DNA of 10,344 nucleotides from Paracoccaceae bacterium (lineage in GTDB: Bacteria; Pseudomonadota; Alphaproteobacteria; Rhodobacterales; Rhodobacteraceae). This document shows, one piece after another, positions 1 to 10,344 of this stretch. The notes under the pieces are model-generated. The model ran no database searches. It was given only the letters and a program-made list of their open reading frames with translations, and had not been told where the DNA came from. The position numbers and the translations under genes were made by a program. Location: the NCBI GenBank assembly GCA_024742655.1, contig JANSYB010000033.1:1-10344 (forward strand), written 5' to 3'. Every line of letters starts with the position of its first letter. The first letter of the stretch is position 1.

Positions 1-59
1 CGGTTTTCATCATGGGCACGCTGGCCGTCGGCACCATGATGGGCGGAGGTGCGGCATGA
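1..59 (+). CDS. C-terminal end of a hydrophobic protein, candidate arginine/ornithine transporter (partial)
   Basis: Only the last 18 codons are present, in the frame that ends with the TGA at 57-59. The tail is very hydrophobic and small-residue rich (Val-Phe-Ile-Met-Gly-Thr-Leu-Ala, then Gly/Ala/Met), as expected for the end of a membrane helix. Its stop overlaps the arcA start in an ATGA, so the two genes are probably translationally coupled in one operon. An arginine/ornithine antiporter (ArcD or a YfcC-like carrier) is the usual neighbour of arcABC, so a transporter is a reasonable guess. The fragment itself is too short to prove the family. Confidence 0.55.
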
Positions 60-1279
60 GCGATCTTGGCGTCCATTCCGAAACCGGGCAGTTGCGCCAG
101 GTGATTGTCTGCAAACCCGGCCTGGCACACCGGCGCCTGACACCCGAGAACTGCCAGGACCTTCTGTTCGATGACGTGTTCTGGGTGAAACAGGCGCAAA
201 AGGATCACGACATGTTCGCCGATCTGATGCGCGGTGAAGGGGTCGAGGTTCTCGACACCGGCGTCCTGTTGGGCGAAACGCTCGACATCCCCGACGCCCG
301 CGCCTGGATACTGGACCATCGCATCACGCCTGCGGAAATCGGCGTTGGCATGCTGACCGATCTGCGCGCCTGGATGAATGAATTGCCCGGGCCGGACCTC
401 GCCAGGTTCCTGATCGGTGGCCTGACCGTGGATGATCTGCCATTCGAGCCCACGGGCATGTTCGGCAGTTACCTCGGGCGGCTTGGATTCGTGCTGCCGC
501 CCCTGCCCAACATGCTGTTCACGCGGGACAACAGCGCCTGGATCTATTCCGGCGTGACGCTCAACCCGATGTATTGGCATGCGCGGCGCCCCGAGACCCT
601 GTTGACGGCGGCGATCTACCGGTTTCATCCGGCCTTTGCCGACCGCGTCGAGGTGCTCTGGGGGGATCCCGCACGCGATTTCGGCCTCGCCACGGTCGAA
701 GGCGGGGACGTGATGCCCGTCGGTGACGGGCTCGTTCTGATCGGCATGGGCGAACGCACCTCGCCACAGGGCGTGGGGCTTCTGGCCGAGGCCCTTTTCG
801 ATCAGGGCCGGGCGACACGGGTTCTGGCCTGCCAGATGCCCAAGGATCGCGCGGCCATGCATCTGGACACCGTGTTCACGTTCTGCGGTGGCGACGTGGT
901 GACCAGTTTCACCGAGGTCGCGGCGGAATTGACCGTCTACGATCTGCACCCCGGCGAAGGCCGCGCACCGCTTGACATCCGGCGGCTCGACCGCCCGCTC
1001 TTCGACGTGATCGCCAAAGCGATGGGGTTCAGGAAACTCAATGTCGTGCCCACGGGCGGCGCGGATGCGTTCGAGGCCTCCCGCGAACAATGGAACGACG
1101 GCAACAACGTCCTTGCGATCCGTCCGGGCCTCGTCATCGGCTACGACCGCAACGACGACACCAACGCGGCCTTGCGCGCAGAAGGCATCGAGGTGCTCGA
1201 AGCGCCCGGGGCCGAGCTTGGGCGCGGTCGCGGCGGCGGGCGCTGCATGAGCTGTCCCACCATACGCGACCCGGCATAA
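56..1279 (+). CDS. arcA: Arginine deiminase
   Basis: Cytoplasmic enzyme that hydrolyses L-arginine to L-citrulline and ammonia, the first step of the arginine deiminase pathway. At 407 residues it has the usual family length. The N-terminus has the family opening [18 protein letters not shown] (residues 5-22). The catalytic set of the guanidine-modifying fold is visible: Asp158 in FTRD, Glu215 and Asp218 in EGGD, His269 and Asp271 in MHLD, and the nucleophile Cys397 in GGRCMSCP near the C-terminus. A second cysteine, Cys400, stands where many homologues have another residue. The start is set by GGAGGT at 45-50, five bases before the ATG, and by overlap with the upstream stop. arcB follows after 10 bases. 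Family assignment is very secure. Confidence 0.97.
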
Positions 1280-1289
1280 GGAGGAGACA

Positions 1290-2291
1290 ATGGGCTACAA
1301 TCTGAAGAACCGGCACTTCCTGAGCTTGCGGGATTTCTCTCCGGCCGAGATCGGTTTCCTGCTGAAACTCTCGGCGGATCTGAAGGCCGCGAAATACGCC
1401 GGTACCGAACGCGCGTTGCTGAAGGGCAAGGAAATCGCGCTGATCTTCGAGAAAGACAGCACGCGAACCCGCGCCGGTTTCGAGGTCGCAGCCCACGACC
1501 AGGGGGCGAATGTCACCTACCTGGGGCCGACCGGCTCTCATATCGGGCGCAAGGAAACGGTCAAGGACACCGCCCGCGTGCTCGGCCGCATGTTCGACGG
1601 GATCGAATACCGTGGCTTTGGCCAGGACGTGGTCGAGCAATTGGCCGCCCATGCCCGCGTACCCGTCTGGAACGGTCTGACGGACGAATTTCACCCCACC
1701 CAGGTTCTGGCCGATTTCCTGACGATGCAAGAGCACGCGAACAAGCCGTTGCGCGATATCGCTTTCACGTTCATGGGCGACGCCGGCAACAACATGGGTG
1801 ACAGCCTGCTGATCGGCGGCGCGAAAATGGGGATGGACGTCAGGTTATGCGCCCCGCGTGAATGCTGGCCCGCCACGGTGATCGAGGCCGAAGCACGAAG
1901 CATCGCCCAGTCGACCGGCGCGCGCCTCATGGTTTCGGACAATGTCGAGGAGGCGACACTGGGGGCCGATTTCATCTACACCGATGTCTGGGTTTCGATG
2001 GGCGAGCCCAAGGAGAGATGGCGCGAGCGGATAGACCTTCTGAAACCCTACCAGGTCACCGCAAGGGTCATGGCCGATACCGGCAATCCGCGCACGCGGT
2101 TCATGCATTGCCTGCCGGCCTTCCATAACGCCGAAACCGAGATGGGCGCCCAGATCGAGAAGGAATTCGGCCTGTCCGAGATGGAGGTCACGGACGAGGT
2201 TTTCGAAAGTGAAGCCTCTATCGTCTTCGACCAGGCCGAGAACCGGTTGCACACGATCAAGGCGGTACTGGTCGCCACGATGGGGGCCTGA
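1290..2291 (+). CDS. arcB: Ornithine carbamoyltransferase, probably catabolic
   Basis: Cytoplasmic transcarbamylase interconverting citrulline plus phosphate with ornithine plus carbamoyl phosphate. The 333 residues contain every family signature: the carbamoyl-phosphate loop STRTR (57-61), HPTQ (135-138), the ornithine-side loop DVWVSMGE (232-239) and the catalytic HCLP (273-276). An AAGGAGGAG ribosome site lies a few bases before the ATG. Sequence alone does not separate the catabolic ArcB from the anabolic ArgF. Its place between arcA and arcC, with 10- and 3-base gaps, argues for the catabolic direction, feeding carbamoyl phosphate to carbamate kinase. The family is certain; the direction is inferred from context. 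Confidence 0.95.
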
Positions 2292-2294
2292 GCC

Positions 2295-3218
2295 ATGCTG
2301 GTCGTCGCGGCCCTGGGCGGAAATGCCCTGCTCAGGCGGGGGCAGGCCCTGACCGCCGAGAACCAGCGCGAGAATGCCCGCGCCGCGGCCGGCGCGCTGG
2401 CCGGGATCGTGCGCGCGGGGCATGACCTCGTGATAACCCATGGCAATGGTCCACAGGTCGGACTTTTGGCGCTTCAGGGCTTGGCCTACAAACCCGACGA
2501 GGCCTATCCCCTCGACGTGATGGGGGCCGAGACCGAAGGCATGATCGGCTATCTCATCGAGCAGGAACTGGAAAACGCGCTCGACCATGACCGCGCGGTC
2601 GTCACGCTTCTGACCCAGATCCGCGTGGACCCTGACGATCCGGCCTTTGCAAAGCCGGCGAAATTCGTCGGGCCCGTCTACGACCGGCAAGAGGCCGAGA
2701 CCCTGGCACAACGGCATGGCTGGTCCATCGCGCAGGACGGCGATCACTGGCGCCGCGTCGTCCCCTCGCCCGCCCCGGTCGAAATCCCCGATCTCAAGGC
2801 GATCCGGCAGTTGCTGATCCACGGCACGATCGTGATCTGCGCGGGCGGCGGCGGGATACCGGTGATGGCCCGGCCCGATGGCGGACTGACCGGCGTGGAG
2901 GCCGTGATCGACAAGGATGCCGCCAGCCGACTGCTGGCCGAGGCCCTTGGGGCCGACGCGCTTTTGATGCTGACCGACGTGGACGGGATCATGCGGGATT
3001 TCGGCACCGACCGGGCACGGCGCATCGGTCATCTTACACCACAAGAGGCGCGCGCACTTGATTTGCCCGACGGCTCGATGGGCCCCAAGGCGGCTGCCGC
3101 GGCGCGTTTTGCAGACAGTGCGACGGGCCGGTGGGCCGCGATCGGCAAACTGGACGATGCCCTCGGCCTGATACTGGGCTCGGCCGGAACCCGCATCGCC
3201 ACCGCCCCGCCCGCCTGA
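2295..3218 (+). CDS. arcC: Carbamate kinase
   Basis: Cytoplasmic amino-acid-kinase-family enzyme that uses carbamoyl phosphate to phosphorylate ADP, giving ATP, ammonia and CO2; it is the energy-yielding last step of the pathway. At 307 residues it has the usual length. Visible motifs are ALGGNALL (6-13), VITHGNGPQVG (46-56), DVMGAETEGM (74-83), FVGPVY (124-129), CAGGGGIPV (182-190), VIDKDAAS with Lys207/Asp208 (204-211), LTDVDGI (226-232) and GSMGPK with Lys265 (260-265). The ATG lies three bases after the arcB stop, with no strong ribosome site of its own, so translation is probably coupled. The gene converges on the small - strand gene, whose stop is only six bases away. Confidence 0.96.
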   Translation: MLVVAALGGNALLRRGQALTAENQRENARAAAGALAGIVRAGHDLVITHGNGPQVGLLALQGLAYKPDEAYPLDVMGAETEGMIGYLIEQELENALDHDRAVVTLLTQIRVDPDDPAFAKPAKFVGPVYDRQEAETLAQRHGWSIAQDGDHWRRVVPSPAPVEIPDLKAIRQLLIHGTIVICAGGGGIPVMARPDGGLTGVEAVIDKDAASRLLAEALGADALLMLTDVDGIMRDFGTDRARRIGHLTPQEARALDLPDGSMGPKAAAAARFADSATGRWAAIGKLDDALGLILGSAGTRIATAPPA

Positions 3219-3224: not shown

Positions 3225-3479
3225 TCATGTATTCGCCGCCAGGCCCCAGTGATCGCGCAATTCCGCAATGACCCGGGTCGGCAGATTGTGATAGCGGGCG
3301 ATTTCGCTGTCACTCAACCCGTAATCAACGAAGGCCGAAAGGGCCGCCCGCGGCGCCATGCCAAGCGTTTCGGCAATCTTTCGGCGCCGTTTCGCATCCA
3401 GCGACGTCCCCGCAAGATCACGATCAAGAGTATCGCTCAACATCCAGTCCTTCAGCATTCGCATGTGACTTTCCGCCAT
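3225..3479 (-). CDS. Small helix-turn-helix-like protein of unknown function
   Basis: I do not recognise a named family. The protein has 84 residues from the ATG at 3479; an in-frame TTG three bases upstream could add one residue. It is basic and helical. The N-terminal half has a cluster Lys-Arg-Arg-Arg-Lys. The C-terminal half, Tyr-Gly-Leu-Ser-Asp-Ser-Glu-Ile-Ala-Arg-Tyr followed by a second helix ending in Asp-His-Trp-Gly-Leu, looks like a helix-turn-helix (the LSDSEIARY type seen in DNA-binding domains). No ribosome site is strong; TAGG lies about eight bases upstream. A Crp/Fnr-type dyad (3511-3524) sits 31 bases upstream of the ATG. The gene could encode a small DNA-binding accessory factor, but that is inference. 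Both coding status and function are less sure than for its neighbours. Confidence 0.65.
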   Translation of the reverse strand: MAESHMRMLKDWMLSDTLDRDLAGTSLDAKRRRKIAETLGMAPRAALSAFVDYGLSDSEIARYHNLPTRVIAELRDHWGLAANT

Positions 3480-3510
3480 CAAAGCCTACCCACGAAAGAT
3501 TGGCCGCGCT

Positions 3511-3524
3511 TTTACACACGTTAA
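3511..3524. promoter_or_regulatory. Crp/Fnr-type dyad, site 1 (upstream of CBS gene and of the divergent small gene)
   Basis: TTTAC-ACAC-GTTAA is a 14-base dyad with ten-base symmetry of the form TTNAC-N4-GTNAA. It lies in the divergent region 31 bases from the - strand ATG (3479) and 133 bases from the + strand CBS ATG (3658). The same pattern occurs at 5305-5318 and 10178-10191. The spacing and symmetry match Crp/Fnr-superfamily operators, but the half-site is not the FNR one (TTGAT). The regulator at 4150-4923 is the obvious candidate binder; this is inference. Confidence 0.55.
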
Positions 3525-3546: not shown

Positions 3547-3552
3547 CACACT
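3547..3552 (+). promoter_or_regulatory. Candidate -10 element for the CBS gene
   Basis: CACACT lies exactly where a -10 hexamer would fall if dyad site 1 is centred at -41.5 (class II activation), which puts +1 near 3559. It shares A2, A4 and T6 with TATAAT. The dodecin promoter has CAGACT at the same distance from its dyad. No -35 box is evident, as expected for an activated promoter. This is inference from spacing only. Confidence 0.3.
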
Positions 3553-3657: not shown

Positions 3658-4089
3658 ATGCGAATCAGAAAAATCATGTCCGAACCCGTTATCTCGATCA
3701 CATCGGAAGATGCGATCATCAAGGCAGCGGACCTGATGCGACGCCACGCCATCGGTATCCTGCCGGTTCTGGAGAGTTGGTGCCCCGTCGGCGTCATCAC
3801 TGATCGTGATATCGTCATACGGGCGGTTGCCGACCCCGAGAGGGCGCTGGACCAGGCGGTCAGGGCCGTGATGTCACGGGACCCGATTTCGTGCCAGGCC
3901 GATCAGACAATTGCCGAAGCAGCCGCCGTCATGGGCGACGAGCAGGTCAGGCGCGTGCTGGTTCTCGACAGATCAGAGCACCTTGTCGGTGTTCTGACGG
4001 TCGGCGATATCGCCAGGGAGGTCTCGGAGGAGCTGGCCGGTCAGGCTCTCGGCGAGATTGTCGAGTTTCGCAAAAACCCCGACCGGTGA
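3658..4089 (+). CDS. Two-CBS-domain protein
   Basis: Stand-alone cytoplasmic protein of 143 residues made of a tandem CBS pair (Bateman module): CBS1 at about residues 7-57 (MSEPVISITSEDAIIKAADLM, then GVITDRDIV) and CBS2 at about 72-125 (MSRDPISCQADQTIAEAAAVM, then GVLTVGDIA). Such modules bind adenosyl ligands (AMP, ATP, SAM, NADH), dimerise, and report energy or redox state to partners. No catalytic domain is attached. AGGAGG at 3645-3650 lies seven bases before the ATG and fixes the start. A Crp/Fnr-type dyad stands upstream. Stand-alone CBS proteins in hypoxia or dormancy regulons (for example Hrp1 of Mycobacterium tuberculosis) are a plausible parallel, not proof. The ligand and partner cannot be read from the sequence. 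Confidence 0.9.
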   Translation: MRIRKIMSEPVISITSEDAIIKAADLMRRHAIGILPVLESWCPVGVITDRDIVIRAVADPERALDQAVRAVMSRDPISCQADQTIAEAAAVMGDEQVRRVLVLDRSEHLVGVLTVGDIAREVSEELAGQALGEIVEFRKNPDR

Positions 4090-4149: not shown

Positions 4150-4923
4150 TCAGCTGCAATTCCTCAATGGCGGAGGCGCGTCATCCGGCATGATCTCCTT
4201 GCGCAAATCATCGGGATCGATCTCGGCGAGGTCCGCAAGCCTGTCGATATCCCGGATCGTGATATCCATGTGATCGCTGACATCGAGAATACCGTTGCGT
4301 TCAAATCGCCGCAGAGTGCGGCAGATATGGACAGAAGATAATCCGCACAGATCGCCGAGTTGCTGTTGGTTCATCGGAATATGGAATTCCTTGACCTCCG
4401 GCAAACCCTGACCGGTCGATCTGAGGCAAAGTTCGCACAGCGCATAGGCGATGATGGTCTCTGCCCCGCCCTTGCCCAAACGCAGCATGCGTTCGGACAT
4501 GCGTGCCCAGGCCGCTCCGGTTTCCTGATGGAGCGCGCCCACGATGTCGGGATTGTCATCGACAAACCGAAGCCACGTGCCGCGCGGGATCGCGGCATAG
4601 GTCACGTCGCTGAGGGTCTCGACCTCAACCGCGCTGATATCCACATCCGCGGAAGCCGGATCCAGGATGTTGCCCGACAGCAGGATGTCGACGATCAGGC
4701 GGTTGCCTTCCATTGTGAACTTGGAAACGCAAAGCCACCCCGACACCATCAGATACACGCAATCGCTTTCTTCTCCTTCAAGCTTGATCACGGCTTTTGC
4801 GGGGTGGTTTTGCAGATGCGTCCTGATCAAAGCCGACATCCGGTGTGCGGCTTTCGACTCTTCCTTGATCCCGGCTGGAAGCACGAACGCGTCGCGATTG
4901 GCATAAAGAATGCGAGCAGACAT
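4150..4923 (-). CDS. Crp/Fnr-family transcriptional regulator
   Basis: Cytoplasmic DNA-binding regulator of 257 residues. An N-terminal extension (1-40) is followed by a cyclic-nucleotide-binding-like beta barrel (about 41-120, with LEGEESDCVYLMVSGWLCVS), a long dimer helix (about 125-170) and a Crp-type winged helix-turn-helix (about 175-225). The helix-turn-helix is at 185-212 (MNQQQLGDLCGLSSVHICRTL onward). The recognition helix has Val-His where FNR has Glu-Thr, and keeps the conserved Arg202. There is no N-terminal FNR-type [4Fe-4S] cysteine cluster. Cysteines at 55, 65, 163, 166 (CxxC), 193, 201 and 256 could be redox-active, but this is not shown. The barrel lacks an obvious cAMP-site signature, so the effector is unknown. 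GGGGG lies about seven bases upstream of the ATG. The gene is convergent with the CBS gene and divergent from the phasin run. Confidence 0.93.
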   Translation of the reverse strand: MSARILYANRDAFVLPAGIKEESKAAHRMSALIRTHLQNHPAKAVIKLEGEESDCVYLMVSGWLCVSKFTMEGNRLIVDILLSGNILDPASADVDISAVEVETLSDVTYAAIPRGTWLRFVDDNPDIVGALHQETGAAWARMSERMLRLGKGGAETIIAYALCELCLRSTGQGLPEVKEFHIPMNQQQLGDLCGLSSVHICRTLRRFERNGILDVSDHMDITIRDIDRLADLAEIDPDDLRKEIMPDDAPPPLRNCS

Positions 4924-5385
4924 ATTTGGGCCCCCGTTATTTGAAAAATATCTTTAGTTTAGCACGGATCGGGAACGCGATGCCACCGGAGCGGGCATTT
5001 TCGTCCGTGTCGGGCGGGGTCGAGGGGCTATTTAACGGCAAGTTTCCGCTTGAACGACACTCAGGATGCCCCGCAGCGGATCGCAGCGTCGGAACGCCCC
5101 CATCCTGGCTTCCATGTGGCTGTTTCGGGCTGGAAAGGCATGGCACGCGGGGGCAAAGGGCAAACCGCGCGACCGGACCAAATGATCCGATGCCATGGCA
5201 AGGGCGCGGGCCCGTGTCTGACGGTCTTGCACACTCGAATCGTGACGCGTCCAGCCCGGCAAAACACCCAAGGCCGAACCACGGGCGCACTCATGTGCCA
5301 CGCTTTTACGCAGGTTAATGCGACACCCCGCCCCTTCCCGTCACCTTCATGTCCAGACTGCCCCTGACCTGGCCCGGAGGATGAA
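4924..5385. other. 462-base intergenic region between the regulator and the phasin run
   Basis: No convincing gene is present. Open frames exist on both strands, but they overlap one another, are Arg/Pro/His rich and lack good ribosome sites. The first 45 bases (about 4924-4970) are AT-rich compared with the rest and probably hold the regulator's promoter, read leftward. The right end holds dyad site 2 (5305-5318) and the phasin ribosome site. The stretch at about 5040-5300 has no feature I can name; a small RNA or a long 5' leader is possible but unsupported. Confidence 0.5.
5305..5318. promoter_or_regulatory. Crp/Fnr-type dyad, site 2 (upstream of the phasin run)
   Basis: TTTAC-GCAG-GTTAA fits TTNAC-N4-GTNAA. 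It ends 67 bases before the phasin ATG. Its left flank CGCT is shared with site 1 and its right flank ATGCGAC with site 3. No clear -10 hexamer falls at the class II distance; CAGACT at 5354-5359 is 13 bases too far, so the promoter geometry here may differ. Confidence 0.55.
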
Positions 5386-5817
5386 ATGGCGACCGATCCG
5401 AAGACCCCTTTGACCGACATCATGGACCAAGCCCGCGGCATGCTTGCCACCAATCCGATGCTTGCGCCGCAGATGGAACAATTCTGGAAAGCTCAGGAAG
5501 ATGTCCTCAAAGAAGCCCGGACATTTTCCGAGGCATGGTTTCAACGCCGACAGGAAGCGGCGCAATCAGCCCTCGACGCGGTGCGCGACATCAACGGTAA
5601 CGGTGCCGACCCCTCGATGGCCATGTCCGCCATCATCGATTGGCAGCAACACTCATTCCAGCGGCTGACCGAAGACATGCAGCAATGGGTCGATCTTTGC
5701 ACGCGTTGCGCCGGCTGCATGACCTCAGCCGAGGTCGAGGCGGGCAAGGAAGGCGCGAAAAAGGTCGCCAAACGCGCGAAATCAACCGCCAAGACGAAAC
5801 ATGCAACCCCGGTGTGA
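5386..5817 (+). CDS. Phasin-like protein with CxxCxxC motif and basic tail
   Basis: A 143-residue, mostly alpha-helical protein. The N-terminal part (about 10-60) is amphipathic, with MEQFWKAQEDVLKEARTFSEAWF, followed by a region resembling phasins (about 50-112). Phasins coat polyhydroxyalkanoate granules; some act as stress proteins. The C-terminus (about 119-140) is rich in Lys/Ala (GAKKVAKRAKSTAKTKHA), like the histone-like tails of PhaF-type phasins, which can bind DNA. A CxxCxxC motif (Cys105, Cys108, Cys111) is unusual for a phasin and might bind a metal. GGAGG at 5376-5380, five bases before the ATG, fixes the start. It is the first gene of a run with the 95-residue protein, the exported protein and the bacterioferritin-like protein. 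The phasin call rests on general resemblance, and no PHA synthase is in the window. Confidence 0.7.
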   Translation: MATDPKTPLTDIMDQARGMLATNPMLAPQMEQFWKAQEDVLKEARTFSEAWFQRRQEAAQSALDAVRDINGNGADPSMAMSAIIDWQQHSFQRLTEDMQQWVDLCTRCAGCMTSAEVEAGKEGAKKVAKRAKSTAKTKHATPV

Positions 5818-5873: not shown

Positions 5874-6161
5874 ATGGATGACAAGAGCGCATATCGTCAG
5901 AAACTCGAGGCGCGCCTCGATCAATGGCGCGCTGACATAGACAAGCTGGAGGCGAAAGCGGCCGAACTCGGTGCGGACGCACGGATACAGTACCAGAACC
6001 AGGTCGAAGAGCTGCGCCAGAAGCAGGACCAGACGCGCGAGAAACTCGAGGAACTCGACAAAGCCAGCGACGAGTCATGGGAAGACCTCAAAGGCGGGTT
6101 CGAGAAGGCCTGGGATGACCTCGGCACGGCTGTCAAGAACGCAACGGAAAGGTTCGGTTGA
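5874..6161 (+). CDS. 95-residue coiled-coil protein, sll1863-like stress protein
   Basis: A small, highly charged, cytoplasmic helical protein with no signal peptide. Residues 8-66 form a heptad-like coiled coil (LEARLDQWRADIDKLEAKAAEL, then VEELRQKQDQTREKLEELD). The C-terminus has a tryptophan-bearing amphipathic segment SWEDLKGGFEKAWDDLGTAV (residues 68-87; Trp69 and Trp80, 11 apart). It resembles the small coiled-coil stress proteins typified by cyanobacterial sll1863; the function is not established. The ATG at 5874 is preferred because GGGAGA lies about seven bases upstream. A longer in-frame reading would overlap the phasin gene. It follows the phasin gene by 56 bases and the next gene starts two bases after its own, so the genes are probably co-transcribed. 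Confidence 0.85.
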   Translation: MDDKSAYRQKLEARLDQWRADIDKLEAKAAELGADARIQYQNQVEELRQKQDQTREKLEELDKASDESWEDLKGGFEKAWDDLGTAVKNATERFG

Positions 6162-6162
6162 G

Positions 6163-6657
6163 ATGCAAACGAGACGTAAAAGTCCCGCTCTTCGCCTGTC
6201 GGCCGCACTGGCCCTTTGCGTGGGTCTGCTTGCCCTGCCCTTGCCCGTGCAGGCACAGCAATCCGACGAAACGACCACCTTCGAGGACGTGCAAAAGGAG
6301 TTTTCGGAGACGTTCGACACCATTTCCGAATACACCGCGCAGGAACGCGAGGATGCGCTCGCAGCCATCGACGAGACGTTGCAACGCCTGGATGGCCGGA
6401 TCGAAGAGACCGAAGCGGCCATCCGGGACCAATGGTCGGAGATGTCGCAGGCCACCCGCGAACAGACCGCCGCCACCCTGAAAACCTTGCGTGAACGCCG
6501 CAACCGGCTGAGCGAGGCCGTCGGTGCGTTGTCGCAGGGCGCGGGCAATGCCTGGGGCGACCTCATGGCCGGTGTGCGCAATGGCTGGAACGATCTGGAA
6601 CGCGCCTGGGGCGACGCGGCATCGACCGTTGATACCGAAACCGAAACAGGAGACTGA
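6163..6657 (+). CDS. Exported coiled-coil protein related to the preceding 95-residue protein
   Basis: 164 residues with a clear Sec signal peptide: basic MQTRRKSPALR, a hydrophobic core at 12-27, and a predicted cleavage after VQA (residue 31). The mature part (32-164) is acidic, helical and soluble-looking, so periplasmic location is likely. Its C-terminal half lines up with the neighbouring protein: LRER (109-112), Leu123 and Trp131 have the same spacing as LRQK, Leu61 and Trp69 there, and AWGDLMAGVRNGWNDLERAW (130-149) matches SWEDLKGGFEKAWDDLGTAV, including an 11-residue Trp spacing. It thus looks like an exported paralogue with unknown function. The ATG at 6163 follows the upstream stop by one base; GGAAAGG at 6146-6152 may serve as ribosome site. 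A longer in-frame reading would overlap the previous gene and bury the signal peptide. Confidence 0.85.
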   Translation: MQTRRKSPALRLSAALALCVGLLALPLPVQAQQSDETTTFEDVQKEFSETFDTISEYTAQEREDALAAIDETLQRLDGRIEETEAAIRDQWSEMSQATREQTAATLKTLRERRNRLSEAVGALSQGAGNAWGDLMAGVRNGWNDLERAWGDAASTVDTETETGD

Positions 6658-6658
6658 C

Positions 6659-7144
6659 ATGACCAATCGATCGCGTAGCCTTGAAAATCTGCAACAGGCG
6701 CTGTCCATGGAAATGACGGCGATCCATCAGTACCTGCTTCACGCGCATGTGCTCGACGACTGGGGGCTTGATCGTCTCGCCGCCAAGATGCGCGAGGAAA
6801 TGAACGAGGAACTCGGCCATGCCAGCCGGTTTCTCGATCGGATTCTCTACCTGGACGGCGACCCCGAGATCACGGCAACAAAATCGCCCAAACCCTCGGA
6901 AACGCTTGAGGATCTCTTTTCGGCCGATCTCGAAGAGGAAAAGGGCGCGCTTGACTTCTATTCGCAAGCCGCACAAGCCGCCGATGAGGATCGCGACGTC
7001 GGAACCCGGATATTGTTCGAAGAGATCATTCTGGATGAGGAAGGTCACAAGGACTGGCTGTCGCAACAATTGAACCTGCTCAAGCGGATGGGCGAGCCGA
7101 CCTACATGGCCAAGACCATGAGCGACGCGACCCAAGATGCCTGA
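6659..7144 (+). CDS. bfr: Bacterioferritin-like ferroxidase, probably haem-free
   Basis: Iron-storage or iron-detoxifying protein of the ferritin four-helix-bundle superfamily, 161 residues (family about 155-160), cytoplasmic. The di-iron ferroxidase ligands fall at the same numbers as in E. coli Bfr: Glu18, Glu51, His54, Glu94, Glu127 and His130; Tyr25 is also kept. Position 52, where Bfr has the Met that ligates the intersubunit haem, is Leu (EELGHA), so haem binding in the usual way is unlikely. The start is set by AGGAGA at 6648-6653, five bases before the ATG, one base after the stop of the exported protein. It is likely co-transcribed with the phasin run. Oligomeric state (24-mer) and role (storage versus peroxide protection) are inferred from family. 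Confidence 0.93.
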   Translation: MTNRSRSLENLQQALSMEMTAIHQYLLHAHVLDDWGLDRLAAKMREEMNEELGHASRFLDRILYLDGDPEITATKSPKPSETLEDLFSADLEEEKGALDFYSQAAQAADEDRDVGTRILFEEIILDEEGHKDWLSQQLNLLKRMGEPTYMAKTMSDATQDA

Positions 7145-10177: not shown

Positions 10178-10191
10178 TTGACCGAGGTAAA
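10178..10191. promoter_or_regulatory. Crp/Fnr-type dyad, site 3 (upstream of the dodecin gene)
   Basis: TTGAC-CGAG-GTAAA fits TTNAC-N4-GTNAA and is followed by ATGCGAC, as at site 2. It ends 87 bases before the dodecin ATG. CAGACT at 10214-10219 falls exactly at the class II -10 distance. Confidence 0.5.
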
Positions 10192-10213: not shown

Positions 10214-10219
10214 CAGACT
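10214..10219 (+). promoter_or_regulatory. Candidate -10 element for the dodecin gene
   Basis: CAGACT lies at -12 to -7 if dyad site 3 is centred at -41.5, with +1 near 10226. It shares A2, A4 and T6 with TATAAT and is close to CACACT at the same relative place in the CBS promoter. This is inference from spacing. Confidence 0.3.
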
Positions 10220-10278: not shown

Positions 10279-10344
10279 ATGTCGATGATGAAGGTTATCG
10301 AAGTTCTCGCAAACTCCCCCGATGGATTTGACGCAGCCACGGAG
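10279..10344 (+). CDS. Probable dodecin, N-terminal fragment
   Basis: The first 22 codons are present and the gene runs off the window. The opening Met-Ser-Met-Met-Lys-Val-Ile-Glu-Val-Leu-Ala-Asn-Ser-Pro-Asp-Gly-Phe-Asp-Ala-Ala fits the first strand and helix start of dodecins (xKVIEVxAxSxxxxxDAxx), small dodecameric flavin-binding proteins of about 70 residues that buffer FMN or riboflavin. AAGGAG at 10266-10271 lies seven bases before the ATG. It is preceded by a Crp/Fnr-type dyad, so it may belong to the same regulon as the CBS and phasin genes. The fragment is short, so the family call is good but not certain. Confidence 0.75.
   Translation, partial: MSMMKVIEVLANSPDGFDAATE

Follow-up and report, generated by a model that had tools for sequence, protein, structure and literature searches.

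The 10,344-nucleotide contig JANSYB010000033.1 of a Paracoccaceae bacterium (hereafter the window; it is the whole of contig C186, from an assembly of 745 contigs and 3.34 Mb that is 85% complete) carries the dyad TTNAC-N4-GTNAA ahead of three transcription units, which raises the question of whether a single regulator acts at all three, and which one. A first-pass annotation had placed the dyads before a CBS-domain gene, a phasin gene and a dodecin gene and proposed a local regulon of the Crp/Fnr type. We consider it highly probable that they are operators of one dedicated Crp/Fnr activator, the product of 4150-4923 on the reverse strand, which would drive low-energy survival genes in a class II manner. 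The sites, their spacing and enrichment, their association with genes, the promoter geometry and their co-occurrence with the regulator were established computationally. The features concerned are as follows.

3511..3524, forward strand: candidate operator 1, TTTACACACGTTAA, before the CBS gene; profile score 20.5
5305..5318, forward strand: candidate operator 2, TTTACGCAGGTTAA, between the regulator and phasin genes; profile score 24.4
10178..10191, forward strand: candidate operator 3, TTGACCGAGGTAAA, before the dodecin gene; profile score 18.5
4150..4923, reverse strand: Crp/Fnr-family regulator, the proposed operator binder; PF13545 and PF00027 above their cut-offs, and fold
3658..4089, forward strand: CBS-domain protein, a predicted target; PF00571 in two stretches
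5386..5817, forward strand: phasin, a predicted target; PF09361 at 20.2 bits, under the cut-off of 24.9
10279..10344, forward strand: first 22 codons of a dodecin gene, a predicted target, truncated by the contig end

Within the window, the coordinates and letters of the three dyads were as annotated and no fourth match was found; a mean of 0.03 matches was expected, and none of 200 shuffles gave three or more. The dyads lie 133 bases before the CBS gene (ATG 3658), 67 before the phasin gene (ATG 5386) and 87 before the dodecin gene (ATG 10279), in agreement with the range of 67 to 133 given earlier, and the flanks reported as shared, CGCT on the 5' side of sites 1 and 2 and ATGCGAC on the 3' side of sites 2 and 3, are likewise present.

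An alignment search yielded 66 loci, a single-protein search of the genome contigs having yielded none; the 44 loci (711,557 bp) around regulator relatives, mostly from marine bacteria, were analysed, and 22 distant loci were set aside. In the 44 loci, TTNAC-N4-GTNAA gave 89 matches, against 2 for the reversed pattern and 5 for its complement, and at least one exact site was present in 38 of them. A spacing of 4 alone was enriched, the other spacings from 0 to 8 giving 0 to 4 matches each. No enrichment was found in the 22 distant loci (2 matches versus 2 for the control). Leisingera plasmid islands (three closely related records), in which a regulator 41 to 43% identical lies beside a CBS gene, carry two sites each: the sulfite oxidase gene has one upstream of it, and the other separates the Hsp20 gene from the universal stress genes. 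In the Pseudorhodobacter plasmid locus L018 the exact site was absent, and only mixed forms such as TTGATGTCGGTCAA were found.

The symmetrised profile of the sites reads G (.57) C (.67) A (.55) T T [A.58, G.31, T.09] A C N4, in which four letters were fixed by the search pattern and the flanks and third letter were free, and the extended operator is TTRAC-N4-GTYAATGC. This profile, built without window data, gave its three highest scores in the window, listed above, to the three dyads, with the next place at 9.4; its training sites had a median of 22.5 and a tenth percentile of 18.2, so that site 3, close to the latter, is a weak member. Gene cores came from our own blastp clustering, with no trained gene finder, and covered 83% of the bases; of 95 sites (89 in the 44 loci and 6 on the Leisingera plasmids), 88 lay outside gene cores, 61 of these between divergent genes. 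This enrichment outside the cores, together with sites before CBS, phasin and dodecin orthologues near regulator relatives, goes against both outcomes that would have refuted the regulon reading, a motif no commoner upstream of genes than in shuffled sequence and one not conserved before orthologues. One sequence type, TTGACAYTGGTGAA, repeats within the coding frame of one gene family in the related loci L047:11926, L051:15503 and L077:17529, and these repeats are probably conserved coding sequence, not operators.

Association with genes was counted as a site no more than 350 bp upstream, with the window excluded; because the clusters were chosen once the data had been seen, and because some of the loci are closely related, the p-values of association serve only as a guide. 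A site preceded 20 of 24 phasin, 7 of 15 dodecin and 10 of 32 CBS genes, compared with a background of 34 of 428 other genes with homologues. Sites also preceded thiolase genes (6 of 6), another family (7 of 9) that is divergent from thiolase in several loci, so that the same site is counted twice, and genes for Hsp20 (5/8), S30AE hibernation-factor-like proteins (6/12), F1-ATPase-beta-like proteins (4/6) and sulfite oxidase (3/4). Regulator genes had a site within 350 bp in 18 of 46 cases; many of these sites are nearer to a divergent phasin gene, and we claim no autoregulation.

For six clusters, sites within 200 bp of a gene were oriented toward it (52 sites, 2 of them from the window). Of the 52, 32 showed at least two of the three key letters of a -10 hexamer at a distance of 32 bp from the dyad centre, compared with 16 at 33 bp and no more than 11 at any other offset from 18 to 59; on the side facing away from the gene, there were 10 at 32 bp and a maximum of 11. 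With the window left out, 30 of 50 sites had such letters at 32 bp, the maximum over offsets in 2000 shuffles of the downstream bases being 18. The offset recurred in the phasin (10/20), CBS (5/9), dodecin (6/7), Hsp20 (5/5), hibernation-like (3/6) and ATPase (1/3) clusters, and each of the three window sites has two of the three letters at this distance, giving the following hexamers, predicted from geometry.

3547..3552, forward strand: putative -10 hexamer CACACT, its centre 32 bp downstream of the dyad centre of operator 1; two of three key letters
5341..5346, forward strand: putative -10 hexamer TCACCT, its centre 32 bp downstream of the dyad centre of operator 2; two of three key letters
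10214..10219, forward strand: putative -10 hexamer CAGACT, its centre 32 bp downstream of the dyad centre of operator 3; two of three key letters

A dyad near -41.5 with a -10 hexamer about 32 bp from its centre is the geometry of class II Crp/Fnr promoters; in Dinoroseobacter shibae, the corresponding values for nirS and nosR2 are 39.5 and 41.5 bp (PMC5398030). Such an arrangement makes it more likely that the sites serve activation. Conservation is higher in the promoter-proximal half, with GTTAATGC in 28 of 50 sites, and the distal half is TTGAC in 26 of the 50, TTAAC in 14 and TTTAC in 10. We propose that a regulator dimer would bind TTRAC-N4-GTYAA, with the promoter-proximal half extended to GTYAATGC, and that, from a dyad centred near -41.5 and 32 bp upstream of the -10 hexamer, it would activate transcription in the class II manner. 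Its targets in the window would be the CBS protein, the phasin operon and dodecin, and further targets in relatives would include Hsp20, hibernation-factor-like, F1-ATPase-beta-like and sulfite oxidase genes. The signal would most likely be oxygen limitation or redox state, perceived without an Fnr-type cluster.

The regulator, scored as present at E <=1e-30 with weaker relatives scored as absent, was found in 10 of 198 genomes of the family. The extended site CATTRAC-N4-GTHAA averaged 4.1 per genome in these 10 and 1.13 in the 188 others, with controls of 0.4 and 0.48, respectively (p about 3e-6, or 1e-5 after dropping the source genome of the window); genomes G084 and G126 appear to coincide with profile loci L068 and L057, which leaves the comparison partly dependent on the profile. 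Phasin orthologues occurred in 8 of the 10 regulator genomes and 9 of the 188 others, and a site scoring at least 16 within 260 bp before the phasin was present for 7 of 9 genes in the former and 1 of 9 in the latter (p 0.015), the limit of 16 having been set after the scores were seen and one of the seven deviating from the core by one letter. In genome G141, a dodecin gene with a site lies about 730 kb from the regulator gene, so linkage alone cannot account for the sites. The sites in relatives and their frequency in regulator-bearing genomes support the proposal that one regulator links these genes, and strongly indicate that the product of 4150-4923 itself binds the window sites. Of the first-pass term "local regulon", "local" is apt as far as the window goes; relatives have a broader set, part of which is not linked to the regulator gene.

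The regulator belongs to a mostly Rhodobacterales subfamily of the Crp/Fnr superfamily and has the cyclic-nucleotide-type sensor domain and Crp-type helix-turn-helix of that superfamily. Its predicted recognition helix, placed by alignment with A. fischeri FNR and with coordinates computed from the frame, is the following.

4297..4335, reverse strand: recognition helix, regulator residues 197-209 (V198, H199, C201, R202)

In this alignment V198, C201 and R202 match Glu209, Ser212 and Arg213 of E. coli FNR, residues implicated in DNA binding (PMC2908626). The glutamate that the Fnr, FixK and DNR groups carry at helix position 17 (Glu209) is absent, V198 standing in its place and being almost invariant among 29 relatives; R202, the arginine of helix position 21, is invariant in the 29 relatives, as is C201 in 29 sequences. 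The only cysteines are at residues 55, 65, 163, 166, 193, 201 and 256, so that none lies before residue 55 and the N-terminal iron-sulfur set of FNR and FnrL is lacking. The protein scored 48.4 bits against the NCBIfam FnrL equivalog, below the cut-off of 300; a separate FnrL gene of the same assembly (L096) scored 454.5 bits, and the assembly also encodes L098, a third protein carrying a Crp-type helix.

Compared with known systems, the FnrL and Dnr regulons of D. shibae (PMC5398030) and the FnrL regulon of Rhodobacter sphaeroides (PMC2908626) share the dyad with a 4-base spacer, the class II position and stress targets, and the core too is shared by some of the D. shibae sites. However, Fnr and Dnr helices retain the glutamate (PMC2908626), whereas the window regulator has valine; the operator consensus there is TTGAT-N4-ATCAA, and Fnr has a cysteine cluster that this protein lacks. 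In CRP, residues 180 and 181 co-vary with operator letters, and NssR of Campylobacter jejuni, in which glutamate 181 is replaced by glutamine, has the motif TTAACnnnnGTTAA (PMC1274295). The valine at the aligned position and the mostly non-G third operator letter would fit this rule, which is a correlation. NssR governs a nitrosative-stress regulon in another phylum and was compared by motif and residues 180/181 only; the TGC extension is not reported in the portion of PMC1274295 cited here. In many relatives the core agrees with that of the NssR operator, 14 of 50 distal halves reading TTAAC; no window site is an exact copy of TTAACnnnnGTTAA. The NnrR operator, ctTTGcgnnnncgCAAag (PMC1274295), was not matched, since the window sites and the profile read TTNAC-N4-GTNAA. 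FixK2 is a Crp/Fnr activator without iron-sulfur cysteines that is controlled by oxidation of one cysteine, C183 (PMC5582078); its helix falls in the glutamate-type group, and the invariant C201 of the window regulator sits in the recognition helix; a thiol switch like that of FixK2 would be a guess. The regulator may belong to group A, B, C or G of the alphaproteobacterial Crp/Fnr proteins, which PMC2908626 lists as uncharacterised and as having helices and predicted sites unlike those of Fnr. Regulons of this kind are already known, but no published description of this regulator, operator and target set was found in the main texts searched, supplements and figures lying outside the search.

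Could the dyads be real Crp/Fnr sites bound mainly by FnrL or a Dnr-type nitric oxide regulator, with the neighbouring regulator being a further target or using other sites? Promoters of FnrL and Dnr in D. shibae use TTAAC-N4-GTCAA and TTGAC-N4-GTTAA, and universal stress genes are FnrL targets there (PMC5398030); moreover, the 188 genomes without the regulator still average more extended sites than their control. Against this, the sites cluster around regulator genes and are commoner in genomes that bear it, and the TTGA half, which most of the listed R. sphaeroides FnrL sites have (PMC2908626), is absent from sites 1 and 2. We consider this account quite unlikely. CtrA boxes have the half-site TTAAC in common with the dyads, but the D. 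shibae form, TTAAC-N5-GTTAAC (PMC7232146), has a spacing of 5, at which the 44 loci gave 3 matches compared with 89 at 4; with the wrong spacing, CtrA was rejected as next to impossible. That a short motif, picked after sighting by an earlier reader, arose by chance is hardly credible given the shuffles, the recurrence before the same genes in relatives and the fixed -10 offset.

Several observations weigh against a dedicated activator. FnrL is encoded in the same assembly, and FnrL and DnrD of D. shibae use TTAAC-N4-GTCAA at nirS and nosR2 (PMC5398030), so shared use of the operators by FnrL or Dnr is possible. Six of the 44 loci have no exact site, and many loci are close kin, so that counts are not independent. 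By the 350-bp count, only 10 of 32 CBS genes and 7 of 15 dodecin genes have a site, and a genome-wide search found a strong site before 2 of 6 dodecin genes of the regulator-bearing genomes. The -10 hexamers are weak, at two of three letters. Three of the distant loci, from Blastomonas (L091, L092 and L095), have a VHVCR helix resembling that of the subfamily and no site, which speaks against a simple rule of one helix and one site and shows no obvious fit to the co-variation rule.

A bolder reading is that a Rhodobacterales subfamily with its own code, TTRAC-N4-GTYAATGC, alongside loss of the Fnr glutamate, removed from Fnr control a survival regulon of carbon-storage granules, flavin storage, ribosome hibernation, small heat-shock proteins and an alternative ATPase, and senses redox directly through C201. 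We hold this joint claim as tentative and rather doubtful, since the operator code and the release from Fnr lose ground to the Blastomonas loci and to the equal numbers of Fnr-type matches ahead of phasin. In each group, 2 of 9 phasin genes are preceded by an Fnr-type match of 9 or 10 letters, and a clean swap from Fnr-type to TTRAC is not claimed; the phasins of genomes without the regulator have, for example, TTGATGCCGATCAA at 93 bp (G119) and TTGATCTGTATTAA at 80 bp (G043). With the dedicated activator, an unnamed regulator subfamily would gain a defined operator, promoter geometry and target list, one switch would tie together carbon-granule, flavin-storage and ribosome-resting genes, and there would be an added case in which the loss of one recognition-helix residue is accompanied by a changed operator letter.

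The phasin assignment comes from the sub-cut-off Pfam match and from orthologues, one of which (L051:6088-6561) passes the PF09361 cut-off at 25.7 bits. For the 22 dodecin residues, the top matches among 3365 short open reading frames were the dodecins of relatives, a cluster named by PF07311. Downstream of the phasin gene lie closely packed frames, with gaps of 56, 1 and 1 bases, which may form a co-transcribed operon with it.

5874..7144, forward strand: two small open reading frames (5874-6161 and 6163-6657) and a ferritin-like gene (6659-7144, PF00210)

A frame of 85 amino acids (3225-3482, reverse strand) lies on the far side of operator 1 from the CBS gene and points away from it; it has blastp relatives in 14 fetched loci, gave no match in a Pfam search and might share that operator.

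Across the whole assembly TTNAC-N4-GTNAA has 30 matches and the reversed control 9, and three of the 30 sit in the window, 0.3% of the assembly. Some of them (L001, L006) are likely FnrL sites; the two that read TTGAC-N4-GTCAA, one before a cytochrome oxidase subunit I gene and the other before a FixG-like gene, look like FnrL sites. Others fall within long open frames. Both kinds of match suggest that the pattern is somewhat too wide. The dyad TTAACACACGTTAA (L003:1501-1514, contig C94, profile 20.3) stands 231 bp upstream of a ChpT-like gene (PF10090) and 10 bp upstream of a GNAT acyltransferase; chpT is reported to be under Crp/Fnr control in D. shibae (PMC7232146). A second, TTAACGGACGTTAA (L008:1501-1514, contig C167, 20.6), stands 97 bp upstream of the gene for a LuxR-type regulator that has an autoinducer-binding domain, and the top-scoring dyad of the assembly, TTAACGCGCGTTAA (L007:1501-1514, contig C138, 25.7), lies 65 bp before a frame of 220 amino acids without a Pfam match. 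Fasciclin and further genes are also among the annotated neighbours. The window additionally encodes a cation P-type ATPase and, at its start, the full arginine deiminase set arcA-arcB-arcC (56-3218), the promoter of which falls outside the contig.
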